Origin: Amycolatopsis sp. GM8
GTDB taxonomy: Bacteria > Actinomycetota > Actinomycetes > Mycobacteriales > Pseudonocardiaceae
Length of the DNA: 64,000 nt
Assembly: GCF_021653975.1 (NCBI RefSeq)
Contig: NZ_JAJKFK010000007.1
Location: 434,001-498,000, forward strand
Direction: 5' to 3'
Every line of letters begins with the position of its first letter. The first letter of the stretch is position 1. The notes beneath the pieces are model-generated. The model was not told the DNA's origin. It saw nothing but the letters and a program-made list of their open reading frames with translations, and ran no database searches. Below, in pieces: positions 3,915 to 30,919 of this stretch. The position numbers and the translations under genes were made by a program.

Positions 3915-3936
3915 CACGCGAGTCGAAAGGAACGCA

Positions 3937-5413: not shown

Positions 5414-5471
5414 AACTTGTGGAGCTAAGGGGACTCGAACCCCTGACCCCCTCACTGCCAGTGAGGTGCGC
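5414..5471. repeat. att site, left copy of 58-bp direct repeat (tRNA-Ala 3' half)
   Basis: This 58-bp stretch is identical to 30841-30898. Positions 5420-5471 are the 3' half of tRNA-Ala(GGC): anticodon arm, variable loop, T-arm and acceptor strand. Beyond 5471 the sequence departs from tRNA, so this is not a functional tRNA gene. It marks the far junction of an element that entered at the tRNA gene. Confidence 0.93.
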
Positions 5472-7150: not shown

Positions 7151-7187
7151 TGGCACCCGGGATGCTCGACGAGCATCCCGGGTGCCA
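7151..7187. repeat. 37-bp perfect palindrome (18-bp arms, 1-bp centre)
   Basis: The left arm at 7151-7168 (TGGCACCCGGGATGCTCG) is matched exactly by its reverse complement at 7170-7187, with a single A between. It sits about 220 bp before the HEPN-motif gene in a region (6783-7406) with no convincing gene. No T-run follows on either strand, so it is not an ordinary intrinsic terminator. It could be an operator, a cruciform-forming site or a relic of an element end. Confidence 0.8.
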
Positions 7188-7406
7188 AGTCCGCACCCAC
7201 CACAACGGCCACGATCGCGCCCGCTCCCCAGTTCAGCACCCGCTCAACCCCGCTCGAATGATCAACCTCGCTGCACCACCCCGACCACGACAGACAGAAG
7301 TCGCGATCGTGTTGTTGCCCTGATCTTCGCAGCCTCTTTGCCTGTCGGCCTGCGCCGTGTGCAGAAATTGCCTGAGGCCTCGCGTCAGATTTGGCATGAT
7401 GGCTTG

Positions 7407-9482: not shown

Positions 9483-10350
9483 GAGCGTGTCTCGTTTGGT
9501 TTTCTGTCGTTGGGCTGCAATGATCTTGCGCTGTGATCGACTCGCTGTCGCAACGGCTGGTGCCCGACGAATTGTGGGCGTTGGTGGAACCGCTGATTCC
9601 ACCGGCAATGGAGCGTCCGCAGGGTGGCGGCCGGGCTCGGACGGATCCGCGGGCGGTGTTGACGGCCATCGTATTCGTGTTGACCAGCGGTTGTGCGTGG
9701 CGGCACCTGCCGCCGTCGTTCGGGGTGTCGGTACCCACGGCGCATTGGACGTTCACCGAGTGGACCGAGGCCGGACTGTGGAGACAGTTGCACCAGGCGG
9801 TGCTGGACGAACTGGGTGGCCAGGGGCTGATCGACTGGTCGCGCGCGGTCCTGGACGGAGCATCCATCAGGGTCACAAGGGGGGCGGTCTGACCGGTCGA
9901 AGCCCGGTTGATCGCGGCAAACCCGGCTCGAAGATCCACGTACTGTCCGACCGGGCCGGCCTGCCCTTGACCGTCGCGATCTCCGCGGCCAACATCCACG
10001 ACAGCCACGCGCTCAAGCCTCTGGTCAACGCGCTGCCGGCGATCCGGTCACGCCGGGGACCCCGGCGACGGAAGCGGACCAAGCTGCACGCGGACAAGGC
10101 CTACGACATCCCCGCCCTGCGCGACTGGCTGCGTCAACGCCGAATCATCCCGCGCATCGCCCGCAAGGGCATCGAATCCTCCGAGAAACTCGGCAAACAC
10201 CGGTGGGTGATCGAAAGAACGATCGCCTGGCTGACCGGCTACCGGCGCCTGAGCATCCGCTACGAACGCAAACCCAGCCACTACCTCGCCTTCCTCACCC
10301 TCGGCGCCGCCATCACCTGCCACAAGAAACTAACCAAATGAGACACGCTC
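9483..10350 (+). mobile_element. IS5-family (IS427-like) insertion sequence, complete
   Basis: 868 bp. The ends are imperfect inverted repeats: left GAGCGTGTCTCGTTTGGTT, and the right end read inward GAGCGTGTCTCATTTGGTT. It is flanked by a 3-bp TTA target duplication (9480-9482 and 10351-10353), the T-N-A preference of the IS427 group. It carries one transposase in two overlapping frames. Ends, duplication and both frames look intact, so it may be active or recently inserted. Confidence 0.9.
9533..10341 (+). CDS. IS5-family transposase, made by -1 frameshift
   Basis: Frame 1 (9533-9892) encodes the N-terminal domain (LVPDELWALVEPLIPP, then GCAWRHLPPSFG) and the first DDE aspartate in AVLDGASIR. 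Frame 2, one base back, continues from about 9885 to 10341 as LTGRSPVDRGKPGSKIHVL, LHADKAYD (second Asp) and KHRWVIERTIAWL (Glu). The switch falls in an A-AGG-GGG-G run at about 9878-9888, the usual slippery site of IS427-group elements. A single fused DDE transposase of about 268 aa is expected. Confidence 0.85.
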
Positions 10351-10413
10351 TTAGAGTCCTCCGTTCGTGATCTCTCCGTTGCGGACCTCGGCTCGCCCAA
10401 ACCAGCTGAGCAG

Positions 10414-10649
10414 CTACTCGGGGCGGAACCGCTCCTCGCAAGACCTCGTCGGTGCGGTCGCGCAGCGCTCGCGCCTGCTCGGTCGCGACGCCCAGCCTGG
10501 TGGCGAACTCCCACTCCTCGATCGCCCCCAGCGCCTCGTTGAGGGCATTGGCAAGGGTCGCGAGCGTCGCGCGTCGTCGCGATCACCAACTCGTCGTCGG
10601 CGACCTCGACGTCGCCGATCCACGGAGAGTCGGGATGCAGGATCTTCAT
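10414..10649 (-). pseudogene. frameshifted small gene, likely former immunity gene
   Basis: From ATG 10649 the protein begins MKILHPDSPWIGDVEVADD and then ELVIATTRDAR. A one-base shift near 10555 is needed to continue into the sensible sequence TLANALNEALGAIEEWEFAT, then RLGVATEQARALRDRTDEV. GAGGA lies before the ATG, and the gene starts 9 bases after the stop of the toxin-tail remnant (10658), as an immunity gene would. The IS5-type element lies just beyond its 3' end. No family is recognised. Confidence 0.5.
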
Positions 10650-10657
10650 TGCCGTCC

Positions 10658-10861
10658 TCAATGCAGGTTCAGGAAGTAGTCGTAGCCGTTGGTCGGCCGG
10701 AAGGCTGTGCCGCCGTCGACGGCGTTGGGATTCCGGATGACGACGGTCCCATCCTTCCAGTAGGCACTGCGGCGCAGCACTAGCTTCTTACCGAGGGCGC
10801 GCTGCCTGCGGCAGCGGTGACGCGGCGCCGAGGCGAGCGACCACGCGCGTTGCTGCCCTGG
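10658..10861 (-). pseudogene. orphan toxin C-terminal tip remnant
   Basis: Directly after the stop of the DUF4304-like gene, the same frame stays open for ~67 codons. It ends in LRRSAYWKDGTVVIRNPN followed by DGGTAFRPTNGYDYFLNLH. This tail reads like the last 30-40 residues of secreted Rhs/CdiA-type toxins (compact, aromatic, a strand then GTAFRP), but I cannot assign the nuclease family. There is no start codon or upstream delivery part. Its position behind an rhs locus and before a small gene fits a displaced (orphan) toxin cassette. Confidence 0.45.
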
Positions 10862-11515
10862 TCAGCCATATTGCGCTTGAAGCGCGTCGCGGAGCCGACG
10901 TAAGCGAGCAACAGACAGCTCATCCCTGTACCGCACCATCGCTTGCTCAGCCTCCGCGACAAGTTCGCCCGCACCAGGATCCAAGTCGATGACAGCAAGG
11001 GTCGCTGCCGTGAACAACTTCAGCGGCAGATTCGCCGGAACCACAAAGTCACGCCGATCCTTCAGTTCGCGGTTGAGAAGCAGGGACGCACGAACGTCAC
11101 CTCGCGTGGAGAACACGCGAAGTCTCTGCTCGACTCGACGTAGGTCGGTCGCGACGCCAGAGGCGATCCGCTCGACATCATCCAGCGAAACCGTGTTGCC
11201 TAACCGGAACGACTGACACTCCGGCGGATGGTGGATCGTGCCCGGCGTACCGCTCATGATGGCCGCTCCGACGTCGCCGTGCTTAGCTTCAACGCCCCAC
11301 AAGAACGGCGCAGCCTCAGGACTCACCACACCCCATTGGATGTCGTACATGCCACGGCGCGAGAGCAGAGCGACCACATGATGAAGCTCAGGTGTTCGAC
11401 GAAGCCACGCATGCTTGCTCGCAGACTCGAACCCCGCAGGCAGCAGGACTGCCTCGATACCTTCGGCCGTCACCTTCCTCAGCGCGGCGGCGCGACTCAA
11501 GTCAACCTCGGTCAT
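10862..11515 (-). CDS. DUF4304-like protein, possible immunity protein
   Basis: 217 aa, cytosolic, no signal. It begins MTEVDLSRAAALRKVTAEGI, and the segment LLPAGFESASKHAWLRRTPE followed by LHHVVALLSRRGMYDIQWGV has the layout of DUF4304 and related immunity proteins: a helix, then G-F..., W-R, and a strand pair with a W-G-V motif. The ATG at 11515 is chosen because the codons upstream lack protein character. It lies between the SUKH gene and a toxin-tail remnant in a row of minus-strand genes behind rhs. This fits an immunity gene for a toxin tip no longer attached to the rhs gene (inference). Confidence 0.5.
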   Translation of the reverse strand: MTEVDLSRAAALRKVTAEGIEAVLLPAGFESASKHAWLRRTPELHHVVALLSRRGMYDIQWGVVSPEAAPFLWGVEAKHGDVGAAIMSGTPGTIHHPPECQSFRLGNTVSLDDVERIASGVATDLRRVEQRLRVFSTRGDVRASLLLNRELKDRRDFVVPANLPLKLFTAATLAVIDLDPGAGELVAEAEQAMVRYRDELSVARLRRLRDALQAQYG

Positions 11516-11770
11516 GGCTCCATCACCTGGTTCAAGCGAGATGACACTGGGGGCTGTGTGGACCGGGTCCGTCAAAGGCGGGGTTACCGCCCTAAGCTTG
11601 GCGATCAACTCACCGTTGGTCGAGGTCTATGACGTCGTAAGTAGCGGACCGCGAGCCAAACTCCCAATCCGAACGCAACTCAGCCAACATGAAAGCAGCA
11701 AGTCCACTTCCCACGAATCTTGTTAGGAGTTCTGGGGGCGCTTCACATCGGTTCCCGGCGCTGACGGTCC

Positions 11771-12283
11771 TTAATGGGTACCCTGCTCCCAAAATTTGTC
11801 GCCGAACGCCCTCAGATAGGAATCCAAGAACTCGGCGAGACTGCCAGCGGCGGCATGCCAGTCCGGGCGGTCGTCCATCGGCAGCGCGATCAGCACGTGA
11901 CGGCGGTCGGCCTCCGCGGGCGCGATCACGACGAGTTCCTGATCGCCGAGGAATTCGCCGACGACGACATCGTCAGCGCGGTAGGCGCCGGGACGTCGGG
12001 CGCGCTCCTCCGCGGTGCGCTGGGCAGTGGCCTCAGGTGAGAGCAACAACAGGCCCCACTGCCTGTAGTCGACGTCTTCGAATAGCCGCGACTGGCGGCT
12101 GGCCGACCACGCCTGCACCAGCTCGCCCGGGACCTCGGCACCGGTCCATGCCGACGAGATCTCGGCATGGGTAGCAGGCTCGTCGAAGGAACACGCCAGC
12201 TTGAAGGGGTTGTCGCCGAGTCCGTCGTGCGGCTCGGTGTAGGCGCGGAAGGCGTTCAGCGCCTCCGCCACGTCATCCGCCAT
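11771..12283 (-). CDS. SMI1/KNR4 (SUKH) family immunity protein
   Basis: 170 aa. The SUKH core is seen around residues 40-85: SSAWTGAEVPGELVQAWSAS, then RLFEDVDYRQWGLLLLSPEA, with the conserved W-G-L and hydrophobic strand. The end, AAGSLAEFLDSYLRAFGDKF, is the usual C-terminal helix. The ATG overlaps the last 11 bases of the rhs gene, so it is translationally coupled to the toxin tip. SUKH proteins are known immunity proteins for HNH and other nuclease toxins. It should bind and neutralise the HNH tip encoded immediately upstream. Confidence 0.8.
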   Translation of the reverse strand: MADDVAEALNAFRAYTEPHDGLGDNPFKLACSFDEPATHAEISSAWTGAEVPGELVQAWSASRQSRLFEDVDYRQWGLLLLSPEATAQRTAEERARRPGAYRADDVVVGEFLGDQELVVIAPAEADRRHVLIALPMDDRPDWHAAAGSLAEFLDSYLRAFGDKFWEQGTH

Positions 12284-15200
12284 AGTTCATCCACCACGGG
12301 TTGAATTCCTGCTGGTGCACCGTGCGGGGCACCGGGACGAGGTTGTTGAAGTCGTTCGTGCCACCATACTCGCGCGGGATGATGTGGTGGATGTCGTACT
12401 GCGACCATCCGCCTTCCGGCGTCGAGTAGCCCCGGTCGTACCACTCCTTGATGTACGCGCCACGCTGCTGAGCACCCCACGGCACACGATCACCGACCGG
12501 CACCTTCGACAAACCAGACGGCGGAGCCGGGATCGGATCACCCGTCCGTGGATCGAGCACCTTCGGGTACGCCCGACCAGCAGTATTCAGGATATCGTCG
12601 GTGCCAGTTGCGGCTCTTCCGAGCTTGGTGGCTTCGCCTACGAGTTCGCCGATTTTACCGAAGAAGGGTATGAAGCCGCCGATGGCCATGGCGCAGGATC
12701 CCAGTTGAGGGTTGGTGCCACAGTTGTAGGCGTCGGTTATGCCGGATATATCAGCGAGGAATTTACCGTCGAATTCGTCGTAGCCTTGTTGGAGTGCCTC
12801 ACCGAGGCTGGTTGGTTCGTGAAAGTGGTTGAACTGGCTGTCGATGTTGCGTTGCATCGCCCCGGGGTTATCGCAGGCCGGGTTACCTGGCACAAGACAC
12901 GCTTCGTACTGTTGCTGTACGTATTGGTCTGTCGCGCGTTGCTGGTCGTCGGGTGGGGTGTCTCCGCCACTGGTTGCGGTGGTGTATTCGGCGGCTTGCG
13001 CGATTGATTGGTGGGCTGTGGTGGTGTCGAGTGTCGGGTTGGTTTCTTCGGTGAGGTTGGTGATGGGGGCTGTGTCGGAGCCGGGTCCGTCAAGGGCGGG
13101 GTTGCTGGTGCCAGGTTGGGGTGTCCAGCCTTGGGCTTGGGTGTTGGGTCCGTTGAGGGGTTTGGAGTTGGACGCGGGTTCGTTGACGCGTTGTTGAACC
13201 TGCGCGGCATCGGAAGGGGCTTGCAGTTCGCTGGTACAGCTCGACAGGGACTGCAGCAAGTCGTCGTCTAACCCGAGGCCCGCGCCGATTCCCTCGAGCG
13301 CGAGGATTGCGTCGAGCACGGATCCGAGTGCCCCGAGTCCGCCGTCGCCGTAGCGGCCTCCGCCGTAGCCACCCCCTGTGCCGTAGCCACTGCCTCTGCC
13401 GTTACCACCACCTCTGCCGGAACCGCCTGCAGAGTGGCCAACGCCTCCGCCGGAACCACCTCCGCTGTTGGTGTCACAGGCGCTGGCGCCGCTGGGGTCG
13501 CTCTGGTTGAGCGGGTCAGCATTGCCGTAGAGGTAGGGGTTCGCGTCCGCCGCGGACCCCGCGAGGTTGGTGGTGGTGTCGCGGCTGGTGAACGCTCCCA
13601 TAGCGGGCGAGTACCAGCGGGACGCGGTTTGCACGAACTGGGTATTGCCGGTATCGGTCCAGCCGCCTTGGTAACCGATGTTGGCCTGCGTTCCTAATGT
13701 GGTGGTCGGGGTACCCCAGGGGTCGAAGTTGACCGACCCGGCGAGCGCGGTCCCGGCGGGGGTGACCAGGGCGGTGAGGTCACCGTGCTGATCGTTGAAC
13801 GCCAGGGCCGAGCTGCTGCCGCTGTTCACGGCCATGACCTGGCCACCTGCGTCGCGGCTGAAGGTCTGGGTGCCGTCGGCCACTGGGGTGGGGTCGGTGC
13901 CGTCGTAGGTGAAGGTGTAGGTGCCGGCGGTCGCGGTACGGCCGAGGGCGTCGTAGCTGTAGTTCGTGGTTCCGGCGGTGGCCAATTGGTCGAACGCGTC
14001 GTAGCTGTAGTTGGTGGTCGCGCCACCTGCGGTCACCGAGGTCATGGCGCCGCGAGCGTTGTAGGTCGTGCTCGAGGTGTTCGCACCGGTGGTGCTGGTG
14101 ACGAGTTGGTTGCGGGCGTTGTAGGTGTAACTGGTCGCCCCAGCCTGGGTGCGGTTACCCGCACCGTCGTACGTGTAGTTGGTGGTCGTGCCGCCCGCAG
14201 CCCACGAGGTTGTGCGTCCGGCTTGGTCGTAGGTGTAGGTGTTCGCCGCGGCACCAGCAGTGCCGGTGTTGGTTTTGGAGGTGATCCGGCCGTTGGCGTC
14301 GTAGCCGTAGGTGATACCGGCGAGCGCGGCACCGGTGGAGGTGGCCAGGGTTTGCCCGGTGAGTTCGTGGGCGGTGTTGTAGGTGTAGCTCTGGGCGGCG
14401 TTACCGGTCCCATAACTGATGCCGGTGGGCTGGTCGAGGGTGTTGTAGGTGTAGGTGGCGGTGGTGCCGGTGAGTGGATCAGCCGCGGTCGCCAAGGTCC
14501 CCGTCGAGCTGTAGGTGAAGTTGGCGGTGCCGGCCTTGTCGGTGCGGGAGGTGAGTTGCCCGTTGGAGTTGTAGGTGTAGCTGGCTGTGCCGCCTGGGCC
14601 GGCGGCGGAGAGGATGCTGCCGCGGTCGTCGTAGGTAAAGGTGTTGGTGCCGGTGGGCGCGCTGGCCGAGGTGAGTCGCCCGGCCGCGTCGTAGCCGAAG
14701 GCGCGGGTCGTGCTCGCCGATTCCGCGCCGGCGCCGGCTGCGCTGGTGAGCCGGCCGAGCACGTCGTAGGTGAGGGTTTCGGTGACGCCGCCGGGTTGGG
14801 TGATCCCGGTGACGTGCTGGTCGGCGTCGTAGACGCGGGTGATGGTGCGGTCCGCGGTGGTGGTGTAGTTGGTTACCGCGGGCACGATGGTGGATTCGCG
14901 TAGCTGCAGCGGGTTGTAGGTGTAGATCGTGGCGTTGTTGTTGCCGTCGGTGTAGCGGGTGGTTTGCCCAGCAGCGTCATAGCCCCAGCTGGTGGTGATC
15001 GATGTCGTGACCGGGGGTGTCGTTCCGGTGGTGGACACCGGCTCCACCTGTTGGGTGCGGCGGTTACCGGCGTCGACGGTGTACTTGGTGACGTTGCCCA
15101 GCGCGTCGGTGGCGGAGGTGATGTTGTCGGCGACGTCGTATCCGGTGCTGGTGGAGCGCAGCGTCGCGCCGGTCGCGTCCAGTTGCGCGGTCCCGGTGCG

Positions 15201-21200: not shown

Positions 21201-22190
21201 GTAGGTGACGCCGGTGGACAGGACACCTTCATCCGATTGCGGGTTGATGTTGGCGTCGCGCATGTAGCCGTGCGCGATCGTGTCCACCACCTGGCCCCTA
21301 GCGTTGGTGAACACCACACTGCCATCCGGCCCCATCGACGGCGTGACCCCGGACAGGGTCAGCGGGAACACCCACGTGGTCGGCGCGTCCACACTGTTGA
21401 GGACCAGAGTTTCTTTGACCCCGCCATTGACCGTGGCCAGGTAGTTCAGGTCGGTGTGCGGGGCGATGCCTGGGTAGGTGATCGTGGAATCCGTCGCCAC
21501 ACCAGCGCTCTTCGCCGCGCCCTGCAGCCCGAAGGCGATGCTCTGCCCCGGCCCCACCGGCACCGACACCAACGCTGGATCATCCGCCGACGGCGCGAAC
21601 GTCACCGACGCCGAATCAGCCTTCTCACCCCACCGCCCCTTGTCGCCCAGTGCCAAGCTGGTGTTGATGTCCGCCCAGCTACCGTCGGCGCGCTGGTAGT
21701 GCACCGGACGCGAATACACCTTCGCCGTCTCACTGCCATCCCCGTTCGCGAACACCGTTTTCGTCGCGGTCCGCTTCTCCGGCAGCTCCCGCCCTGTACT
21801 CGCCGCCGGCTCATGCAGCCGCGGCGGCCCAGGGTTCGCCGTCCCCTGCTGCGGCTCATTGGACAGATGCGGATTCAGCGGCGCCGCTTGAGTTTTCCCC
21901 TCCTCCGCTGCACCCGCCGGCGCCTTCGGCGCCGCCCCACCCCTCGAGCTGGCAATCGCAGAGCTTGCCGTGTGCGGGGCTCCCGCCGCCGAGCCAGACT
22001 GCTGGAGCGGTGTGGCCGGACTCGGGGGCGTTGGCGCCGGCGACACGGCCCATGCCGACTGTCCACCCACCAACACCAGAAGCGTCACCGCCACAAACAA
22101 CGCCAGCCATCGCCGCACCACACCCCCGCAACGATCCGCCAGTCGCGACGCTTTGCGATTTCGATGTGATCCCCAACCCCAGGTGGCCAC
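12273..22190 (-). CDS. giant secreted Rhs/YD-repeat protein with C-terminal HNH nuclease tip
   Basis: 3305 aa from the GTG at 22190 (GGCGGAGGAG just upstream). A signal peptide spans residues ~1-45 (RRWLALFVAVTLLVLVGG, then QSAWA). In order follow a Pro/Ala-rich stretch, a DNRLRE-type domain (~360-550), an Ig-like NBR1-type domain (~560-680), a DUF6531-like start of the Rhs part (SSRDFDPGVGDYTSG, ~775-880), two LamG-like lectin folds (~1015-1230 and ~1290-1530), about 50 YD repeats (~1540-2800), the Rhs core ending ANPYLYGNADPLNQSDPSG (~2890), a Gly-rich linker, and the tip. The tip ends YDIHHIIPREYGGTNDFNNL, then VPVPRTVHQQEFNPWW: an HNH nuclease. The Rhs shell would encapsulate the toxin and DNA would be its target. 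The immunity gene overlaps its 3' end. Confidence 0.93.
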   Translation of the reverse strand: MATWGWGSHRNRKASRLADRCGGVVRRWLALFVAVTLLVLVGGQSAWAVSPAPTPPSPATPLQQSGSAAGAPHTASSAIASSRGGAAPKAPAGAAEEGKTQAAPLNPHLSNEPQQGTANPGPPRLHEPAASTGRELPEKRTATKTVFANGDGSETAKVYSRPVHYQRADGSWADINTSLALGDKGRWGEKADSASVTFAPSADDPALVSVPVGPGQSIAFGLQGAAKSAGVATDSTITYPGIAPHTDLNYLATVNGGVKETLVLNSVDAPTTWVFPLTLSGVTPSMGPDGSVVFTNARGQVVDTIAHGYMRDANINPQSDEGVLSTGVTYALNTVNNQPALQVTLDAAWLHDKSRMFPVRVDPSVANPNTSGSTYVMSPYNNDFSADTVLDVGTWDSGSNVTNSYLKFDTMGLTNDYIEKVSLNLDEVWSYSCQARRVWVSPITSGWSTGGLKTYPWVSIGGAVGWGDFATGWSGTGSTCAQAAWESVDLGDNPSAAGTQLVESWTHGGVNNGLAVTADTYDSYGWKKFASLNSTNPPFLSVTYSPFGASYNPAPNYTAPTGTASGSQQVTVTNLGNSTWMPGQQHLWYQLYDLNGNNLRINGSVDPWTELPSQVAPNQSITLNAIIGPVNPGQYTLCWDMFDGTTSSNLTYNVPSTCETINSLNTPPQIDSTNPPSNVVVSSLRPQLFATGHDPDNYPGNGITFDFQVYSVPAGGGNPTLVVDSGAQSSGNYVVPSGKLAWNQTYYWTVRDYDTIGYSYWSTPSYFSTTVSQPLVTSHMGAAKTSSRDFDPGVGDYTSGATDASVAVAGPALSVVRSYNSQDPRTGNLFGAGWSTVYDMTAVPDNDGSNNVVVTFPDGHTARFGLNGDGTTYTPPQGTYATFASITGGGYILTDRGGTAYTFGQQAGAAWKLTKITDADGRAETLTYDTSGNLTAITSAAGNRALHITVTGGHVTQVATDPVTTGAAALTWAYSYSGNSLTGVCPPTSTTACTAYAYTSGTGSGSHYRSTVLDAQPYAYWRLNQGSTTTTAADEVAANLGTDNGALSNVTVSNSTPHPGSPSESTWFNGVNASLQLPNNLVETSTYNSVQLWFQTTLNGPAGVLMSTGHSAIGSANPSTGAMPVLYVGTDGKLYGQFWTGSVAPIVSANKVNNSAWHQVTLVGQGNTQSMYLDGALVGSRSGNLANLDPMNFIGAGYVNGNPWVNGPAGGWSHFTGNIADTAFYTHALGAPAIAQQWAAGSQPAAELTTITTPAGAKAGQVTYDNILDRATQVTDLHGGAWALAPPSTAGSSAQYRGAVFASNPTDFWPLTDTTGTQAVNQVPTSAISATSDGYGTYNNVTLGQAGPLANTGDTAASFNGTSSSLTIPVQSSYWSGIGKSVSLWVKTSTPGEVLVGLNNGALVYIGADGKLYSWYGSGYLASPRTVTDGKWHYIAVVQSVDFSHNSISETEYIDGKSAASATGPINPSAAQPTIAIGSGTFGSGAPASAASTNPGGYFTGSVADIAFYNTPLSGTAVSGLYTAAQKSSTSPTPVTTATVTDPGSHTLSYTYDPAKGSKLIAASDGLGNTTHYTYDTNGFGYTTTYPDGNYVTTSHDTRGNTLSRTTGDSSGSSATSYYTYPATGTYAVTDPRDDKPLTYLDPNSSGPSDTTYRTSYTYSAGGDLLTTTAPLGGVTTNTYTAGTEAAVGGGTEPAGLLATAKDPMGNTTTYSYTAAGDLAKVVAPSGLTTTGTYDNLGRRTGQTQTSDTFPSGVTTSYTWDGNNQLSTQTGPATTDAVTGTLHTPQITNSHDADGDLLTQAAADTTGGDATRTTTNTYNSDDELATTTDPLGRKTSYSYDSYGNLTSSTDPGGNTYTGTFDANGHRLTTTLTGWTGNPVSPSTASNLVLDSRAYDPDGYLASDTDSMGRQTIYTYDWRGRLLDSTLVNFTQGTSTTNLTLDQYQYDAAGNPVKVVVPLQHSSDTYTYDANGRVSTDQNASNSTTSNTYDADGHITAAVTPIGSINSDGTTTIPSNAPSAETDYTYDTLGDVLTEVVKDGSNLTTSHTYDQRGALTSTVDPRGNVYGAGGAGFTTSYTTDAVGRRTMVTGAPVNAETNGGTATVVHPITEYGYNTFGDQTSVSDPDGNITSYTYDADSEILGVSRPVYTPPGSTTAITPLTKYSYTNLGNVATVTDPLGNVTTETYDQLGNLVKSAQPTVGTTATTWLYTYDTDGEQLSVIDPSGAQTQATYDKLGEKITGTQVVRQPTSVADTTIYTYSPTSGPVNLPTAVTLPGGQQTSYTYDGFGDPLTVTDPASHKTSYTYDSQQRPTTTTMADGTAVTATYDLAGRRTGTAQLDATGATLRSTSTGYDVADNITSATDALGNVTKYTVDAGNRRTQQVEPVSTTGTTPPVTTSITTSWGYDAAGQTTRYTDGNNNATIYTYNPLQLRESTIVPAVTNYTTTADRTITRVYDADQHVTGITQPGGVTETLTYDVLGRLTSAAGAGAESASTTRAFGYDAAGRLTSASAPTGTNTFTYDDRGSILSAAGPGGTASYTYNSNGQLTSRTDKAGTANFTYSSTGTLATAADPLTGTTATYTYNTLDQPTGISYGTGNAAQSYTYNTAHELTGQTLATSTGAALAGITYGYDANGRITSKTNTGTAGAAANTYTYDQAGRTTSWAAGGTTTNYTYDGAGNRTQAGATSYTYNARNQLVTSTTGANTSSTTYNARGAMTSVTAGGATTNYSYDAFDQLATAGTTNYSYDALGRTATAGTYTFTYDGTDPTPVADGTQTFSRDAGGQVMAVNSGSSSALAFNDQHGDLTALVTPAGTALAGSVNFDPWGTPTTTLGTQANIGYQGGWTDTGNTQFVQTASRWYSPAMGAFTSRDTTTNLAGSAADANPYLYGNADPLNQSDPSGASACDTNSGGGSGGGVGHSAGGSGRGGGNGRGSGYGTGGGYGGGRYGDGGLGALGSVLDAILALEGIGAGLGLDDDLLQSLSSCTSELQAPSDAAQVQQRVNEPASNSKPLNGPNTQAQGWTPQPGTSNPALDGPGSDTAPITNLTEETNPTLDTTTAHQSIAQAAEYTTATSGGDTPPDDQQRATDQYVQQQYEACLVPGNPACDNPGAMQRNIDSQFNHFHEPTSLGEALQQGYDEFDGKFLADISGITDAYNCGTNPQLGSCAMAIGGFIPFFGKIGELVGEATKLGRAATGTDDILNTAGRAYPKVLDPRTGDPIPAPPSGLSKVPVGDRVPWGAQQRGAYIKEWYDRGYSTPEGGWSQYDIHHIIPREYGGTNDFNNLVPVPRTVHQQEFNPWWMNYGG

Positions 22191-22496
22191 TACAGACTCC
22201 TCCGCCCAGCCCCTCCGCAGCGGAGGCGCGACCGGAATCAATTTGACGTGCACTGAACACCAATGAGCAATAGTGATCCATGTCATAGTAATAAAAAGGG
22301 AGACCAGTTCGATCTTAATGCTCAATTAATTGCGGCCCGGCCCGAAAAGTCGCTCCAATGGAGCAGTCAAAGTTGTATTAAGGCTCATATTTGTACACGG
22401 AAAGGGAAATTCGGACAACTATGCCACATGGACCAGGTACGCTCATCGACGCTTGAGGTCGAGCATTCTCGGCAACATATCCAAGGAGCACCGAAC

Positions 22497-23732
22497 GTGG
22501 GTTCCCATCCGGCGCCGCGATACAGCCGTGTCGCCCGCAAAGCAGCAGCACTTGCTGCCGCCGCAACCCTTGCGTTCACCACGGCCGTTGCCCACGCCGA
22601 CGAGATCGGTGCGACGGAATGGCCCCTGGATGGCGAGCACTTCAATGCCCAGCAAGTGTGGACTCACAGTCGCGGCACAGGCGTCACAGTCGCCGTCCTG
22701 GACACCGGCGTCGAAGCGACGCATCCCGATCTCGCCGGACAAATACTGCCCGGCACCGGGTTCGCTGGGATCGCCTCCGACACGGGACAATCTGATTTTT
22801 CCCGCGACTCACACGGCACCTCCATCGCCGCAATCATCGCCGGAACTGGACACGGCACAGCGAGTGGGAAAATGATCGGCCTTGCGCCCGGTTCGAAAAT
22901 CCTCCCCGTTCGTGTGGCAATCGGCGACGGGGTCGAGCCGATATCGCTCGCCCAGGCAATCGTCTACTCCGTCGATCACCACGCCCGCATTATCAACATC
23001 TCGCAAGGCACCACCGTCCCCGATCCGCAGATCCGCGGCGCCATCACCTACGCACTCGCGCACGACACCGTCGTTGTCGCAGCCGCCGGCAACAGCGGAC
23101 GTCAAGCAAACCTGCCGATCTATCCGGCCGCCTTTCCTGGGGTGATCAGCGTGACCGGCGTCGACAGAGGCGGCCAGCCGTGGTCCGGCAGCGAATCCGG
23201 CGGCACGACCACAGTCGCCGCGCCAGCTGTTGATATTTACTCCGCCGCGAACGATGGAAAGTACCTTACTGGTGACGGAACCAGTTACTCCGCGCCGTAC
23301 GTGTCGGCGACGGCGGCGCTGATATGGTCGCAACGCCCGGAACTCAGCGCCGGGCAAGTCATTCGTCAACTCGTCAACACTGCCGACCCCCACGGTGCGC
23401 GTCCACACGACGACCATTACGGCTACGGAGTGGTCGACCCTCTCCGCGCGGTCACCTCACCACCCGCCGCAGCGACGAGTAACCCTCTTCTGCAGCCCAC
23501 CGCGCCGCCCGCGTCAAGCGGATCGTCGTCATTGTCGGTCGCGGTTGTGATCGGCGTCGTGATCGTCGTGTGCGTGGCCGCCGCTACGATCGGCTACCGG
23601 TTTCGTCGACGTCGTCGCACCTCTAGTGCCCCCCACTCTGCCGAATCACGACAGGGGAACCACGCACGTCGACAACGCGACAGGTCCATACCCGCTGTCC
23701 GCGGGCGCCAACCATCCCGAGGAAAACGCTGA
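22497..23732 (+). CDS. subtilisin-like (S8) serine protease, secreted and membrane-anchored, mycosin-like
   Basis: 411 aa. The GTG at 22497 has AAGGAG 9 bases before it. The signal peptide is residues ~1-40 (ARKAAALAAAATLAFTTAVA, then HA). The catalytic triad is Asp69 in VAVLDTGVEATHPDL, His106 in DSHGTSIAAIIAG and Ser263 in GTSYSAPYVSATAAL, with the oxyanion Asn in AAAGNSG. A C-terminal helix (SVAVVIGVVIVVCVAAATI) and basic tail anchor it, as in type VII mycosins. No EccB/C/D/E or WXG100 genes are nearby, so it is not part of an ESX locus here. It is divergent from rhs (about 300 bp between starts), so it may process the Rhs protein at the cell surface (inference). Confidence 0.88.
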   Translation: MGSHPAPRYSRVARKAAALAAAATLAFTTAVAHADEIGATEWPLDGEHFNAQQVWTHSRGTGVTVAVLDTGVEATHPDLAGQILPGTGFAGIASDTGQSDFSRDSHGTSIAAIIAGTGHGTASGKMIGLAPGSKILPVRVAIGDGVEPISLAQAIVYSVDHHARIINISQGTTVPDPQIRGAITYALAHDTVVVAAAGNSGRQANLPIYPAAFPGVISVTGVDRGGQPWSGSESGGTTTVAAPAVDIYSAANDGKYLTGDGTSYSAPYVSATAALIWSQRPELSAGQVIRQLVNTADPHGARPHDDHYGYGVVDPLRAVTSPPAAATSNPLLQPTAPPASSGSSSLSVAVVIGVVIVVCVAAATIGYRFRRRRRTSSAPHSAESRQGNHARRQRDRSIPAVRGRQPSRGKR

Positions 23733-23896
23733 ACCAACGCTGCTGAGCCGGTCACCGCACCACGAAACCCTCGACCAAACACCACAAGGACGATCGCAGT
23801 TGCGATGCACGGCCAAGCCCGCCAGCAACGTCAACCACAGGTCCTTGTCCAACACACATGCATCGTCAGGCGACGTTACCCAGGAGGGGACGCATC

Positions 23897-24421
23897 ATGA
23901 GCCTCAAACAGCGGGTTCTGACTCTGCGTAAGTATTGGAAAATAACTCTCCCCTCGGCTCTCGTTGTGGTTGCTGGAATCGTTGCTGCTGTGGTCTTGCT
24001 GGACGCGACGTCCCCACCGAAACCGACCATCTACACGAACCTGTCGCGCCACGTCCGGGTATGCCTGGTGACCAGTGTGCGGAACACGGCGCGGGCCGAC
24101 CAGCTGTGGCCCGCCGTCCAGGCAGCCACGGCGCACGCGGCCATCAATGCCCAGCGCATCAACGCCCCCGCCACGAGCGACAACGACCTTGGGTCCTACC
24201 TCAACAGTGCGATCGCGATGCACTGCGCCGTCATCGTCGCAGTCGGCGACGACCTGCGCGATCCCGCGATCGCCGCGGCAAAAACCCACTCTGAACAACA
24301 CTTCCTGGTCACCACACCGTCCAACCCGCCCGCCAATGCCGAGGCGATTCCGGCCACAGCGCAGGAGCTGACCAATGCCGTGATCACGGCAGCGCATGCG
24401 CCACCACCAGCACCTCACTAG
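23897..24421 (+). CDS. membrane-anchored BMP-like (periplasmic-binding fold) protein, copy 1
   Basis: 174 aa, with AGGAGGGG before the ATG. One N-terminal helix at ~15-36 (ITLPSALVVVAGIVAAVVLL) anchors an extracytoplasmic domain. That domain starts RVCLVTSVRNTARADQLWPA, then VQAATAHAAINAQRI, the opening of BMP/PnrA-type binding proteins (V-C-L-V-T, then W-x-A, then A-A). It continues with HCAVIVAVGDDLRDPAIAAA and HSEQHFLVT, the matching second Rossmann half. It is only half the length of a BMP lipoprotein and has no lipobox or ABC permease, so it is not a transport receptor. A paralogue is at 26717-27244. It follows the protease gene in the same direction. Confidence 0.7.
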   Translation: MSLKQRVLTLRKYWKITLPSALVVVAGIVAAVVLLDATSPPKPTIYTNLSRHVRVCLVTSVRNTARADQLWPAVQAATAHAAINAQRINAPATSDNDLGSYLNSAIAMHCAVIVAVGDDLRDPAIAAAKTHSEQHFLVTTPSNPPANAEAIPATAQELTNAVITAAHAPPPAPH

Positions 24422-24747
24422 GAGACGACAGGCGCACCGCGACGCGCGAGGCACAATCGGGTCTTTACAAACCATGCCACGCAACGCAGTCTCGCACCCA
24501 ACCGGCCCGTACCCTCGCCGAACTCGATAGCGAGAAAATCGCGGACCACGGCGGTCATTGGCCCACTGTGGTTGATCGACCCTAAACGAGGCAGCGGCGC
24601 GAACATCCTTCCGCTGCCACGGCCAGCCGAGGTCGCGCGGCGCGTACGGCCGCGGACGCGTTGCGTTGAGCATGGAATGCCCGTTCTAGGCACCGCCTGC
24701 GCTGGCGGAAACCCGTTGAAGGACGAGACAATATTGCGCTACACAAT
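24422..24747. other. spacer with no convincing gene
   Basis: About 325 bp between the BMP-like gene and the recombinase remnant. The minus strand has an open frame (24418-24693) with a short protein-like stretch (LPRLGSINHSGPMTAVVRDF), but no recognisable family or ribosome site, so it is left unassigned. Confidence 0.35.
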
Positions 24748-24926
24748 CAGGCTTCGGCATTCCGCCGGGATATTTCGGCGGCATAGCCGGAACGGGTGCT
24801 TCCGGCGACGTTGTTCCAGGCCGTCGCGGTCCCAGGGTACAGGTTGAACAAGTCGGACAGGACCGTAGCGGGAAGCTGAGCGGCCAGGTCGATCAGCGCG
24901 GTGTTGCGGCTCAGCCTTGCTTGGAT
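24748..24926 (-). pseudogene. C-terminal remnant of a site-specific integrase
   Basis: Reading from 24926 to the stop at 24748 gives ARLSRNTALIDLAAQLPATV, then LSDLFNLYPGTATAWNN and RSGYAAEISRRN. This is the characteristic C-terminal extension of a group of actinobacterial site-specific integrases (R-N-x-A-L, L-A-x-x-L-P, L-L-x-L-H/Y-P-x-T-A). Only about 59 codons remain, and the upstream part is cut off exactly where the IS3 remnant begins. Confidence 0.6.
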
Positions 24927-24929
24927 GTG

Positions 24930-25743
24930 GTCTGCCCCGGGTTTCGTGGAGTCCGATTGCTGGATTTCATGCCACGACGGTTGCGTTCTCGAACTCTATC
25001 GGAGTGAGCCATCCCAGTTGGCTGTGACGGCGTTGGCGGTTGTGCCAGATCTCGAGGTACTCGAAGATCGCGTTGGCCAACTCGACCCTCCGTGCGCGAC
25101 CAGAACGACTCCATCATCGCGTTGTCGTAACAGTCCCCGATGCTGCCCATCGACGGGCACCAGCCCGGAGTCCTTCGCGCGCTTGGTGAACGCCCACGAT
25201 CCATATTGGACTCCCTGATCCGAATGGATGATCGTGCCAGACTGCGGAGCCGGTTGTCGATGGCCATGCCGAGCGCGTTCGTCACTAGGGCCGCGGTGGG
25301 CGAGGAATCGATAGACCAGCCCACCACGCGACGAGAGTAGACATCGAGCACGACCGCGCAGTAGACCTCGCCCTCGCGAGGAGTGCGGTGCTCAGCCACT
25401 TTCGGTTCGGTCCCGCTGCCGTGAAATCGCGCTTCACCAGATCCTTGGCGATCTCGTCGGGCTTGGTGTGCTTCCACCGCGGCCGCCCATGGCGCCAACC
25501 AGACGGGCGCGGCGCATCAGCATCTCCACCGCCCCGTGACCGACCAGGATCCCACGCCCCAGCCGCAGCTCGGCGTGCACACGGCGGGCACCGTAGCGAC
25601 CCCGGGAGTTCTGGTGGATATCGGTGATCACATCGGTCAGCCAAGCGTGCCGGATCGATCGAGCTGATGGTGAGCGGGATCGCCAGGCGTAGAACCCCCG
25701 ACTCTGACACCTCCAGCACCCGGCACGCGAGCTGGGCCGGCAC
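24930..25743 (-). pseudogene. IS3-family transposase (orfB) remnant, frameshifted and 5'-truncated
   Basis: Pieces of an IS3 orfB are spread over three frames: RGFYAWRSRSPSARSI and RYGARRVHAELRLGRGILVG (N-terminal part), EIAKDLVKRDFTAAGPNRKW in the next frame, then YCAVVLDVYSRRVVGWSIDS (first catalytic Asp in VLDVYSR) and MGSIGDCYDNAMMESFWS (the D-N-A-x-x-E-S-F motif). The orfA and the start of orfB are missing. The end near 24930 has the CCACGAAACCCGGGGCA type of IS3 terminus. It is fused at ~25743 to the rhs N-terminal fragment. Confidence 0.75.
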
Positions 25744-26357
25744 CCACGCCAATGAGGGATCGGCAGCGGAGGGCGCGAAGGAAGTCGCCGCCGCGTCTGC
25801 CTTCTCCGCCCAGCGCCCCGATCCGCCCTGCCCCAGTGTGGTGTCGATATCCGCCCAGTTGCCATCAGCAGTGCGGTAATGCACCGGGCGCGAATACACC
25901 TTCGCCGTCTCGGTTCCATCCGGGTTGGCGAACACCGGCGTCGTCGCCGACCGCTTGCCCGTGATCTCCCGCCCGGGGCTCGGCGGTGCCGTGCGCTGCC
26001 GCGGTGGCGCCGTTGTCGCCGTACCGGTCTGCGCCACATTGGACAGATGCGGGTTCAAAGGTGCGTCTGCGTGCTCGCCTGCGGTGCGGCGCCGGCTGGC
26101 GTCACTTGGGCGGCACCGCCCTTCGTCGCCGCTGTGGCCGGGGCCGCGCTGTGCGGGGCCCCGGCCGCGGTACTGGAGCGCTGCTGCGGAGTCGGCTGAG
26201 TCGGCTGCGAGGACACACTCGCCCACGCCGGCTGCGCCATCCCCGACACCACCAGCGCGACCGCCGTCGGCACGGCCGTCACCCGCGTCCCCAGCCCGCG
26301 CCTCAGCCGCGAGTTCTCTCCCCGATCACGATTTGCCCAGCGTGCCGCAGCGACCAT
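25744..26357 (-). pseudogene. N-terminal fragment of a second rhs gene
   Basis: This is clearly paralogous to residues ~1-215 of the large Rhs protein. It has a signal peptide (TAVPTAVALVVSGMAQPAWA), a Pro/Ala-rich linker, then LNPHLSNVAQTGTATTAPP, ETAKVYSRPVHYRTADGNW and WAEKADAAATSFAPSAADPS; the large protein has matching ETAKVYSRPVHYQRADGSW and FAPSADDPA. A frameshift near 26060-26090 separates the signal-peptide part from the rest. At ~25743 the sequence passes into the IS3 remnant, so no Rhs core or toxin is left. Confidence 0.85.
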
Positions 26358-26716
26358 CGTGCAGTCCTCCGCTTACGGGCTCCTCCCCAGCGGAGTTGCA
26401 CCAACAACGGATTTCACGCGAAACAAACGCACAACGTCAATTGTGACCACGATCACTGTAACGACGGAACGCTTCAAGGCCGATTAATGTGCGCTCTTCT
26501 CTCTGTTGATCTTGCTTCTGCAGCCATTCGGAGTACGACAATTGCGGACTTTCAGGCAAATCTGGACAATAATTTTTGGGCGATGGAATGATCACAGCCA
26601 CCCGGCAGACTCCTTGCCACCACACGGATCCAGGCCGTAACGTGATGACAAAACTTGCGTTGCCGCGGACCCCGAAATGGGCCACATCGGTTCACCAACG
26701 AAACACACGAGGAAAC

Positions 26717-27244
26717 ATGCGGGCGATTTCTAGGTGGTCGTTTTCAGTGTTGCGACGACACTGGAAAATAACCATCCCAACGGGGATTGTCGTCGTAGCG
26801 GGCATCGCCCTCGCGATCGTGATGTGGGTGCTACCCGACAGTCCACCCCAGGCGGTCGTCTACACCAACGTGTCGGCCAACTTCAAGGCGTGCCTGCTGT
26901 CCACCACACGCGATGCCGACGACTCCGAGCACGTCTGGCCCGCGATCCAGGCGGCGGGCACCCGGGCCGCCATCAACGCCCAGCACATCACCGCACCCGC
27001 CGGCACCAGCGACCAACTCGTGCCCTACCTCAACAGCCTGATCTCACTGCACTGCGGACTGATCATCACCGCCGGCACCGACCTCACGCAACCCGCCCTT
27101 GACGTCGCGAAAACCCATCCGCAGCAACGATTCCTCATCCAACCACCCCACGACCCCCTGGCGAACGTCGACTCGATCCCCAGCCAACCCGACGCCCTCA
27201 CCGCGCTCGTCGCCGCCGCGGCACCCACCACCCCCGCCCGATAG
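26717..27244 (+). CDS. membrane-anchored BMP-like (periplasmic-binding fold) protein, copy 2
   Basis: 175 aa, paralogue of the protein at 23897-24421. The N-terminus aligns (LRRHWKITIP versus LRKYWKITLP). The anchor helix is TGIVVVAGIALAIVMWVLP. The domain reads FKACLLSTTRDADDSEHVWP, then AIQAAGTRAAINAQHI and HCGLIITAGTDLTQPALDVA. The ATG at 26717 is chosen by this alignment (GAGGA precedes it closely); an ATG at 26645 is an alternative. It is divergent from the broken rhs2, as copy 1 lies beyond rhs1, with no protease gene in between. An SGNH hydrolase follows 77 bp later. Confidence 0.7.
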   Translation: MRAISRWSFSVLRRHWKITIPTGIVVVAGIALAIVMWVLPDSPPQAVVYTNVSANFKACLLSTTRDADDSEHVWPAIQAAGTRAAINAQHITAPAGTSDQLVPYLNSLISLHCGLIITAGTDLTQPALDVAKTHPQQRFLIQPPHDPLANVDSIPSQPDALTALVAAAAPTTPAR

Positions 27245-27320
27245 CGTCCGCCACCCGCCCTCGCCGCCCGAAGCTCCTGCGAAACAACCACCCACCCGAA
27301 CAGACCACAAAGGACTACTG

Positions 27321-28088
27321 GTGAAACGCACCGCCATGTTGATCACGACCACCGTCGTTGCCGCACTGGTCGCGATCGTCGTCGACGCCGTCCCCTCCGA
27401 CGCCGCCGGAGCCAGCTCCGCCTGGTGCACTTCGCAGCACAACGTGGCGATCGTCGGCACCTCCGCCGACACCGGGTACGGCACCACCGGCTACCCCTCC
27501 AACGCCCAGACCTACCAACCCACCACCTACGGCTGGACACTCCGCTTCGCCAACAGCCTCCACGCCCAATGGGGCACCACCATGGAAAACTACGCCCACA
27601 ACGGCGCCCTCGCCTCCGACTACCTACCCGGCGGACGCTGGACCGCCACTACCAGCGCCACCACCGACATCACCGCGAAACAACCCGAACTCGTCATCAT
27701 CGACCTCGGCGGCAACGAGTTCTACTCCCAAGTCCCACCCAACACCTTCGCCACCAACCTCACCAACGTCGTCAACAGTGTCAAAGCCGCCAGACCCGGC
27801 GCCACCATCCTGCTGTCCACCTACGCCCAACTGGCCTGGGCCCCCAACCCCGACGCCGCCACCGAAAACTACACCTGGAGCCAATACGCCACCCAGATCT
27901 ACAACACCGCCGTCACCGACGGCGTCGCCATGATCGACATGCGCCAATACATCCCAGCCGCCGCCAGCACCAACCTGCCCAACCCCAGCCCCTGGAACTC
28001 CGACAATATCCACCTCAACGACGCCGGAAACCTCGCCGAATACGGCGGATTCTGGGGCTGGGCCTCCGCCATCGCCTCCATCTGCTAA
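27321..28088 (+). CDS. secreted SGNH/GDSL-type hydrolase
   Basis: 255 aa from the GTG at 27321 (AAGGA upstream). The signal peptide is ~1-28 (MLITTTVVAALVAIVVDAVP, then SDAAGA). The SGNH blocks are present: block I VAIVGTSADTGYGTTG (Ser in the G-T/D-S position), block II Gly in NYAHNGALASDYLPGG, block III DLGGNEFYS (the G-x-N site), and block V DNIHLNDAG (the D-x-x-H pair). It should be an extracytoplasmic esterase or lipase of unknown substrate. It lies 77 bp after BMP-like copy 2 in the same direction, so it probably shares its transcript. Confidence 0.8.
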   Translation: MKRTAMLITTTVVAALVAIVVDAVPSDAAGASSAWCTSQHNVAIVGTSADTGYGTTGYPSNAQTYQPTTYGWTLRFANSLHAQWGTTMENYAHNGALASDYLPGGRWTATTSATTDITAKQPELVIIDLGGNEFYSQVPPNTFATNLTNVVNSVKAARPGATILLSTYAQLAWAPNPDAATENYTWSQYATQIYNTAVTDGVAMIDMRQYIPAAASTNLPNPSPWNSDNIHLNDAGNLAEYGGFWGWASAIASIC

Positions 28089-28415: not shown

Positions 28416-28872
28416 GAAAACCGAAAGTGTTCAGCACAGCGTGCTCCCAAAATGCTCCCCAAACACACCACCAGCCCGTCGGCAAAAATCACCGACAGGC
28501 CGTCTGACCAGCGTAAACAGATGGTGGGCGATACTGGGATCGAACCAGTGACCTGTATCGTGTCAACTATGCTCAACTGTGGGCGATCAGCTAATTCCCG
28601 CGGCTGAAATCAGATAATTTCGCAGTTCCTGGCTTGTGTGGGAGTTTAGGCGGCGTCCTCCTTCGGGGTGGTGTTGCGGCCTTTGGGTCGCTTGTTGGGC
28701 CGGCAGCTGGGGCCGTCCATGAAGACTTGGTGGCCGTCGCGAGCACGTCCCGACCAACCGCTAACCGAAGCTGCACTTTCGGATGTTCGTGCAGGTCAAG
28801 GCTGTGCACTGTGGAGAATGTGCCTCCTTGGCGCACCAGACGGTGTGCGCCTCGTCTGATGGGAGGCCTGTC
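28416..28872. other. spacer between integrase remnant and integrase gene
   Basis: Apart from the tRNA fragment at 28522-28553 I see no complete gene. On the minus strand a short frame ends GHQVFMDGPSCRPNKRPKG (stop about 28646), which could be the tail of a lost gene. The 80 bp before the integrase contain its ribosome site (GGGAGG at 28861). Confidence 0.4.
28522..28553 (-). repeat. tRNA 3'-end fragment (tRNA-Val-like), old att site
   Basis: On the minus strand this reads as the last ~32 nt of a tRNA: the T-arm around GGTTCGATCC, an acceptor strand ATCGCCCA and an encoded CCA. The sequence resembles actinobacterial tRNA-Val with a GGGCGAT acceptor. No anticodon or D-arm follows, so it is not a tRNA gene. 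Next to the recombinase remnant it looks like an attachment site left by an element that used a different tRNA from the present island. Confidence 0.6.
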
Positions 28873-30067
28873 ATGGCTTGGGTAGACAAGATCGCGCAAC
28901 ACTCGTGGAGGGTGCGGCACCGGCGCGACGGCGGCAGCGTCGAGTCGATCTACGGATTCGACAACGCCGAAGCCGCGCAGGACATCGCCGGCGCGCTCGA
29001 CAGCCATCGGCGCCGCACCAGCTGGCTGAACCTCTCCAACGACCGCACCACGGTGATCACCCTCGCCGACTGGGTGTGCAACTGGTGGCCAACGCTCGAT
29101 CTGGACACCCGCACCCTGGAGAACTACCGCAGTTACCTGCGCTGCCACATCCTGCCCCGCTTCGGCACGCTCCCGATCCAGGCCATCACGCCCCTGGATA
29201 TCCAGGCCTGGAGCACCCACGCCCTCGAAGGCTACGCCCCCGCCACCATCGGCGGCTGGAAAAACCTACTGTCCATGATCTTCACCGACGCCGTCGACGA
29301 AGGCCTCGTGGCCACCAACCCCGTCCGCAAACACCGCGGCCGCGGACGCCGCTCCCGCCACCTCCGGCCAGAACGGATCTGGGCCACCCCCGAACAAGTC
29401 CTCGCCGTCGCGGACCAGGCGGGCATGCTCGGCGGCCACATCGCCCGTCTGCTGATCATCACCGCGGCCTGGACCGGCTGCCGCTGGGGCGAACTCACCG
29501 GACTCCACCGCGACAACATCGACCTTCAGCATGGCGTCATCACCATCGACACCTGGGAAGGCGCACTGCACGAGTCCAACGGCAAGCGGTGGATCGGACC
29601 ACCCAAGACCGCCTCTTCCGCCCGCCGCATCCACCTGCCCCCGTTCCTCACCGAACTGCTACGGCAGCACCTGGACACCCACCCCTACGAGTACGTGTTC
29701 ACCACCGAGTCCGGCACCTGGCTGTGGCGTTCCACCTTCACCCGCCGCATCCTGCACCCCGCCGCCGACGGCAACCTGGGTGTCGCCAAGCCGGCAGTGC
29801 GCACCCACCCCAGCCTGCCCGGGGCTGACGTTTCACGGGCTGCGACACAGTCACAACACGTGGTTGATCACTGACGACATCCCCGAGATCGCCCGCGCCC
29901 GCCGCCTCGGACACCACGCCGACAACCGGATCGCCGAAACCTACAGCCACGTCTCCGGCGAGATCCACCAGCGGCTCCTCGCCAGCCTTGAACACCGCTG
30001 GCACACGGCCCCACACCAGTGCTGGCACCGAACAGCAGACAGACCCATTCACGCCCGAACGCAGTGA
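28873..30067 (+). pseudogene. int: island tyrosine integrase, one-base frameshift
   Basis: The ATG at 28873 has GGGAGG upstream. The N-terminal core-binding domain (LADWVCNWWPTLDLDTRTLE, then NYRSYLRCHILPRFGTLP) and the catalytic part up to AWTGCRWGELTGLHRDNIDL (box I Arg) are in one frame, followed by a Lys-bearing PPKTASSARRIHLP. At about 29820 (CCCGGGG) the frame must move by one base to reach LTFHGLRHSHNTWLI (box II H-x-x-R), RRLGHHADNR and TYSHVSGEIHQRLL (catalytic Tyr). Without the shift the protein ends at 29874 without box II and Tyr. It lies ~780 bp from the intact tRNA-Ala and points toward it. It is a real frameshift or a homopolymer read error. Confidence 0.85.
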
Positions 30068-30840: not shown

Positions 30841-30898
30841 AACTTGTGGAGCTAAGGGGACTCGAACCCCTGACCCCCTCACTGCCAGTGAGGTGCGC
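30841..30898. repeat. att site, right copy of 58-bp direct repeat (within tRNA-Ala)
   Basis: Identical over 58 bp to 5414-5471. It covers the 3' half of the intact tRNA-Ala gene and six bases past its 3' end. The repeat ends inside the anticodon-stem/D-arm side of the tRNA, as usual for integrases that cut in the anticodon loop. Confidence 0.93.
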
Positions 30899-30919
30899 TA
30901 CCAGCTGCGCCATAGCCCC
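30847..30919 (-). tRNA. tRNA-Ala(GGC)
   Basis: 73 nt. The acceptor stem GGGGCTA pairs with TAGCTCC, followed by discriminator A. The D-arm is GCGCAGCTGGTAGCGC. The anticodon stem-loop CTCACTGGCAGTGAG has anticodon GGC, and the T-arm is AGGGGTTCGAGTCCCCT. CCA is not encoded. It remains functional because the island restored its 3' half. Confidence 0.95.

Follow-up and report, generated by a model that had tools for sequence, protein, structure and literature searches.

Within a 64,000-nt stretch of the genome of Amycolatopsis sp. GM8 (GCF_021653975.1, contig NZ_JAJKFK010000007.1, positions 434,001-498,000 of the forward strand; hereafter the window), two neighbouring loci pair a gene for a giant YD-repeat/Rhs protein, or the remnant of one, with a gene for a short membrane protein that resembles half of a BMP-type binding protein (half-BMP). 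Comparison of these sequences with those of related genomes suggests that the half-BMP may be the cognate membrane partner for a single lineage of giant Rhs proteins secreted by actinobacteria, a proposal that we regard as about evenly poised between right and wrong, and its role would best be read as export, anchoring or assembly of the Rhs protein at the cell surface.

Locus 1 consists of rhs1 and, divergently, an S8 protease gene and half-BMP 1; locus 2 consists of the rhs2 remnant and, divergently, half-BMP 2 and an SGNH hydrolase gene. Both modules lie in a 25.4-kb element (window positions 5414-30898) flanked by perfect 58-nt tRNA-Ala repeats. A sequence-only reading of the window had described a twice-present set, made up of a secreted Rhs protein, a divergent anchored BMP-like protein and a secreted hydrolase, and had proposed a functional unit around the Rhs protein. 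We found that rhs and the half-BMP form the conserved core of this set, with the S8 protease an optional part and the SGNH hydrolase a local extra. Enzymes are present in both copies as described, but S8 and SGNH are unrelated to each other, and the S8 protein carries a C-terminal transmembrane (TM) segment and is therefore membrane-anchored.

In the mechanism that we favour, the outer domain of the half-BMP would face the trans side of the membrane, where it would bind the conserved N-terminal region of Rhs during export, such that the bound Rhs is tethered, folded or positioned at the cell surface. Where an anchored mycosin-like S8 protease is present, it would process the exported Rhs, and in most other modules an internal, self-cleaving HINT domain may perform the same task. 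A partner in export, anchoring or assembly fits better than immunity to the Rhs tip, because the half-BMP gene keeps to the 5' side of rhs and goes with the conserved part of the protein, whereas the tips vary: the 21 tails that we read, 20 of them Pfam-scanned, include HNH, ART-HYD1 and deaminase-like tips as well as others without assignment.

Linkage and joint descent of half-BMP and Rhs genes

We surveyed 390 genomes of the family, 397 of the order and 394 of the class, in partly overlapping sets, and recovered at least 42 short copies, including the two of the window. Among the matches listed, 35 of the 42 half-BMP genes have a giant Rhs/YD frame no more than 3 kb away. A replication set comprised the best 40 previously unfetched matches by E-value, drawn from 297 genomes from the same family as G802 and chosen before their context was seen; here an Rhs lies within 3 kb in 37 (in L281 at 2,997 nt), and L287, L291 (at a contig end) and L295 have none within fetched flanks of about 6 kb. 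These two counts place the association beyond chance and bear out the earlier proposal of a repeated unit around the Rhs; the refuting outcome, homologues lying for the most part apart from rhs genes, was looked for and did not appear.

Among the survey copies with no Rhs gene within 3 kb, L090 adjoins 192 residues of an Rhs N-terminus that share 93% identity with the L091 Rhs, L041, close to where its contig begins, is missing the TM part, L104 is apparently frameshifted, L050 is unlinked with an Rhs of the same lineage elsewhere in its genome, and L137-L139 have their Rhs at a distance of 4-6 kb. Full-length BMP lipoproteins (for example L020/L053, L051, L103 and L264), a lipoprotein-like BMP family and the pseudogene L054 were left out of the counts; weak-scoring survey frames of at least about 330 amino acids were taken as full-length by their length, and reading was confined to those given as loci. 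The profiles were built mainly from Rhs-linked members (alignments A1-A3, with L050 and L090, which have no Rhs gene, in A3), and unlinked half-BMPs may therefore be under-counted. A protein database search returned two relatives besides the window's own, and none were found in a scan of a genome-contig collection or in plasmids. The lipoprotein-like family (L021-L023, L025, L026, L029, L033, L055, L145, L265 and L266) is also short and in most members has a lipobox-like leader of the GYRVVLLTAGDD type; a YD gene occurs in none of its four fetched flanks (L055, L145, L265 and L266).

The divergent layout described for the window does not hold generally, with co-directional pairs being commoner (21 versus 13 divergent among the labelled pairs). 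Of the 20 co-directional pairs, 19 (all but L046) gave a spacing: the Rhs frame opens 0-122 nt past the half-BMP stop codon in 14 and ahead of it in 5. Partner-bearing Rhs proteins cluster together: a tree of 34 partner-bearing and 27 partnerless rows requires 2 changes of state, versus a mean of 20.2 after shuffling, and the single partnerless row inside the cluster comes from G220, a genome that holds an unlinked half-BMP. A larger tree (65 and 27 rows), for which nine of the 40 replication loci, including three S8-bearing ones, gave no Rhs row, again requires 2 changes versus 23.4. Furthermore, the half-BMP and Rhs trees agree for the most part, their distances being correlated across 34 pairs (r 0.55; none of 2000 permutations as high).

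These data also speak to the possibility that the half-BMP is a passive neighbour, travelling with rhs in mobile islands and having no joint function with it. Such a passenger would suit the position of the window copy within a tRNA-Ala element, but the pair has been kept through at least three orientation switches and across five families, and in three of six two-module genomes (G163, G622 and G567) each half-BMP clusters with those that accompany the same type of Rhs in other genomes, which leaves the passenger explanation highly improbable.

Several observations nevertheless weigh against a dedicated partnership. Rhs proteins of this general N-terminal type occur in at least 83 of 200 family genomes, and most of them seem to manage without the partner: in none of 40 other family Rhs regions, taken from the best matches, is there a half-BMP within about 4 kb upstream (L193 spans only 1067 bases; L181 and L185 come from G220, and the Rhs of L181, L154, clusters among the partner-bearing ones). 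In a Streptomyces-type subgroup (L137-L139, L281, L287 and L295; the label is our inference), the half-BMP lies beside genes for an Rv2525c-like glycoside hydrolase and a SurA-like protein, as called from a Pfam run limited to L138; four of these six copies have an Rhs at 3-6 kb, and for two none was seen. A supported branch (99) of the larger tree unites the window's 11-row subgroup and 26 partnerless rows versus 55 others; this node does not settle the history, so one gain, two gains and later losses are indistinguishable, and a single origin of the Rhs/half-BMP pair is possible. Common ancestry of the neighbours adds to the agreement between the trees. Among the two-module genomes, G153 and G289 are uninformative, both copies being near each other, and G223 is discordant, L047 being nearest to L048 by half-BMP and to L049 by Rhs.

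In 16 of the 40 partnerless regions (L196, L197, L201-L210, L212, L214, L215 and L218; Pfam run on two), a gene for a tachylectin-type secreted protein lies upstream of the Rhs, possibly encoding another lineage-specific partner. In L183 and L189, a large BTAD/NB-ARC/TPR regulator-like gene at 1627-4485 is divergent from the Rhs (Pfam run on L183 only).

Genes for immunity are usually found 3' of rhs. This matters for a competing explanation, in which the half-BMP would be a membrane self-protection or exclusion factor that the producer and its kin display and that keeps Rhs proteins of the whole lineage, with any tip, from docking or entering, on top of the immunity genes specific to each tip. 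Half-BMPs pair with the conserved Rhs part across differing tips, which would suit such a factor, as would the unlinked copy retained in G220 and a topology that would place the domain outside the cytoplasm. Its gene, however, lies on the 5' side, often just ahead of rhs, unlike the usual immunity genes, and few copies were found without a nearby Rhs. We consider exclusion unlikely, while keeping it in view.

Fold and topology of the half-BMP proteins

The two half-BMPs of the window are 43-44% identical and have one TM segment each, in agreement with their description as anchored BMP-like paralogues. Both are single-pass membrane proteins whose outer domain adopts the fold of the N-terminal lobe of BMP/PnrA proteins, as supported by an AlphaFold2 model together with Foldseek and VIA matches; an unrelated fold, for which we had looked as a refutation, was not what structure prediction returned. 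Membership of the BMP family falls below Pfam detection (P0002 scores 10.5 bits versus the PF02608 gathering score of 24.1, P0001 has no match and the best Pfam E-value is 0.3), so profile and fold comparison were needed; a half-BMP profile compared with PDB sequences reaches TmpC/PnrA at E 1.5e-10. The best structural match is PDB 4ycs, a 123-residue fragment of a putative Clostridioides difficile lipoprotein covering about half of a BMP, unlike the TM-anchored half-BMP.

In the undamaged half-BMPs that we examined, about 130-170 amino acids follow the TM segment, versus about 300 residues in the two lobes of a full BMP, and the second (C-terminal) lobe is absent, as the half-length binding domain of the sequence-only reading had implied. 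The D-x-SFN motif, a conserved motif of the BMP nucleoside site, was found in none of 26 half-BMPs and none of the 40 in the replication set, versus 55 of 57 full-length BMPs. A lipobox is lacking from the window copies, as had been noted, with one match (inside the TM segment, in L048) among 19 genes screened and one among the 40 of the replication set. Two cysteines common in actinobacterial BMPs are present in all 26 half-BMPs and in 45 and 54 of the 57 full-length rows. The half-BMPs thus share the N-lobe fold and both cysteines with BMP/PnrA lipoproteins (PF02608; TmpC/PnrA 2fqw, Lbp 7x0r and BmpD 6shu), and differ from them in having a TM anchor in place of C-lobe, lipobox and nucleoside motif. 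Their topology suggests that the domain is extracytoplasmic, and the cytoplasmic part consists of a short basic stretch only. No ABC transporter was found among the window frames scanned, in a search that was not exhaustive.

The fold invites the idea, raised in the earlier reading, of a ligand sensor that would read a nucleoside-like molecule and control rhs expression or Rhs release. Loss of the motif and of the second lobe led us to reject nucleoside sensing, and the short basic cytoplasmic stretch argues in the same direction; overall, a sensor of this kind appears very improbable. Since the small gene encodes the N-lobe only, we also considered a split binding protein, in which a C-lobe within the Rhs N-terminal region would complete the anchored lobe to give a two-protein receptor. 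However, the modelled Rhs N-region (mean predicted local distance difference test score 75) is almost entirely beta where confident, and no alpha/beta lobe is seen; beta-sandwich proteins make up most of its PDB matches, and these superpose poorly overall. On the strength of this model we rejected the split receptor, which would be the least probable of the explanations considered here.

The S8 protease, the HINT domain and the gene map of the element

The S8 protein scores as a type VII secretion system (T7SS) mycosin just under the cut-off (TIGR03921, 278.1 bits versus 278.75), with which it shares a signal-like N-terminus, a subtilase domain and a C-terminal TM segment, and differs from T7SS mycosins in sitting in an Rhs module. 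The catalytic triad and a C-terminal hydrophobic anchor can be read by eye in five aligned S8 copies. Within the fetched flanks, an S8 gene lies beside 5 of the 42 survey genes, including window locus 1, and in 6 of the 40 replication loci, where it is located between rhs and half-BMP (50-55% identity). Members of its subfamily (54-59% identity to the window's) were found in its own genome and in four others of 16 module genomes searched, always at the module locus. S8 is thus a recurrent, optional part of the module. The same counts bear on the suggestion that the actual unit is protease plus Rhs, with the half-BMP serving the protease, for example as a docking subunit. An order that would suit this, rhs and then divergently S8 and half-BMP, is found in window locus 1, L039, L040, L043 and L304-L309, but 37 of the 42 survey and 34 of the 40 replication half-BMP genes have no such S8 in their fetched flanks, and we hold this arrangement to be improbable.

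A PT-HINT domain is present in 14 of 20 Rhs tails scanned and absent from those of the window, L219, L221, L222, L223 and L237; by a custom HINT profile L224 was positive and L249 negative. We then searched 26 genomes of our own choice, the 6 S8-bearing replication genomes and 20 others from the same set, reading HINT presence from contig, strand and frame at the expected distance of about 10 kb from the Rhs start rather than from fetched Rhs 3' ends. Each of the 21 S8-less modules considered has an Rhs with HINT, and 5 of 6 S8-bearing ones have an Rhs that lacks it (G1096 holds one of each). Combining the sets, S8-bearing modules comprise 9 without and 1 with HINT, and S8-less modules 3 without and 36 with (Fisher p 1e-6, a test that ignores relatedness). 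L039 (S8-bearing, tip unreadable) and L137-L139 (Rhs not adjacent, HINT present) stand outside this table.

The processing step of the model meets its own difficulties. The contrast amounts to about 3 phylogenetically independent pairs, which is not significant in a test that lacks power, and relatedness may explain it. G1163 has an S8 locus with HINT, and three S8-less modules are without HINT. Of 19 partnerless Rhs tails, 14 have HINT, four do not (L244, L245, L248 and L253) and L257 is unclear; the four HINT-less ones have no S8 hit upstream. With too few independent pairs, a strict replacement of HINT by S8 was not upheld, and we keep it as a suggestive lead only.

We tentatively envisage, as possible rather than probable, that a nutrient-binding BMP protein was pared down to a single lobe, shed its ligand site and acquired a membrane anchor to become an Rhs surface partner in several actinobacterial families, that some lineages swapped HINT for an anchored S8 protease acting in trans, and that other Rhs proteins use other 5' partners, for example of the tachylectin type.

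The features of the element, whose GC content is below that of its surroundings, are collected in the table. The leaders of rhs1 and rhs2 are 72% identical across 300 nt, confirming the common leader recognised earlier, and the two rhs2 pieces (about 25627-26130 and 26064-26294) have 48 and 51% amino acid identity to rhs1. The rhs1 product comprises 20 RHS-repeat stretches, DUF6531, two LamG stretches and the Rhs core (PF05593, 2.7e-82; TIGR03696, 46.5 bits versus a cut-off of 32.5); neither a Pfam scan of its tail nor the custom profile detected a HINT domain. The real start of the S8 frame is probably internal, and since the SGNH frame overlaps the end of half-BMP 2, its start must lie further inside. 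The tyrosine integrase is split over two frames and is therefore frameshifted. The 170-aa frame has no family above cut-off in Pfam or NCBIfam.

Features of the 25.4-kb element (window coordinates)
Feature	Position	Strand	Remarks
Left direct repeat, 58 nt, 3' part of tRNA-Ala	5414..5471		putative att site; 100% identity to right copy
170-aa frame immediately 3' of rhs1	11771..12283	-	candidate immunity gene by position only
rhs1, giant YD-repeat/Rhs, 3350 aa	12273..22325	-	signal-like leader, beta-rich N-region, LamG, Rhs core, tip
HNH-type nuclease motif, Rhs1 C-terminal tip, residues 3310-3332	12330..12398	-	PF01844 E 3.3e-4, 21.2 bits (cut-off 21.4)
S8 subtilase, mycosin-like	22263..23732	+	Peptidase_S8 E 3e-43; signal-like N-terminal segment, C-terminal TM, catalytic D/H/S present
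Anchored half-BMP protein 1, 174 aa	23897..24421	+	likely start 23897; first start of frame 23858
IS3-type transposase fragment (rve)	24911..25498	-	PF00665 E 5.2e-10; terminates rhs2 on 3' side
rhs2 remnant, two pieces	25627..26294	-	N-terminal leader region only; DNA repeat to rhs1
Anchored half-BMP protein 2	26717..27244	+	likely start 26717; first start of frame 26576
SGNH/GDSL hydrolase	27099..28088	+	signal-like N-terminus; PF13472 (Lipase_GDSL_2) E 1.1e-16
Tyrosine integrase, two frames (28783-29874, 29531-30067)	28783..30067	+	beside intact tRNA
Right direct repeat, 58 nt	30841..30898		overlaps tRNA-Ala(ggc) 30846-30919 (-)

The SGNH hydrolase was rejected as a core part, since outside the window it was seen only in L037, L038 and L054, a decayed copy elsewhere in the same genome (C17, about 9801-10770), where a half-BMP 2 copy with one fragment 93% identical lies with SGNH fragments. 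Elsewhere in the element, a DDE transposase (DDE_Tnp_1) is encoded at 9487-10341, and frames 7026-9446 (806 aa) and 10862-11608 (248 aa) have no Pfam match.

Parallels and meaning for secreted Rhs proteins

We found no description of an anchored BMP protein with Rhs in the open-access literature searched. The Eag chaperones of Rhs effectors of the type VI secretion system (T6SS) are likewise Rhs-specific partners encoded 5' of rhs, and differ in being cytoplasmic, in having another fold and in belonging to the T6SS of Gram-negative bacteria.

The nearest working parallel is the WapA/Rhs system of Streptococcus suis. According to PMC12704120, a cognate SecF-like protein and SrtB are encoded upstream, divergently in one strain, the partners group by WapA type, and SrtB1 binds the LysM/DNRLRE part of WapA. 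Both systems would combine a giant Sec-exported Rhs with lineage-specific upstream membrane partners; those of S. suis are a SecF-like protein and a sortase, whereas the partner proposed here is a single-pass BMP N-lobe with no recognised enzyme motif. For the protease, a table in PMC3482391 lists Ntox38 as having a protease of mycosin type next to it.

PMC12704120 describes as an open question how Rhs proteins above 300 kDa, once exported by Sec, pass through the Gram-positive wall. A small, conserved, lineage-specific membrane partner would offer a direct handle on this passage, and the contrast between S8 and HINT would give a second testable point, at the release step. If the wider scenario envisaged above, with other 5' partners in other Rhs lineages, is true, secreted Rhs proteins would amount to a family of delivery systems in which the surface partner can be exchanged and sets the type.

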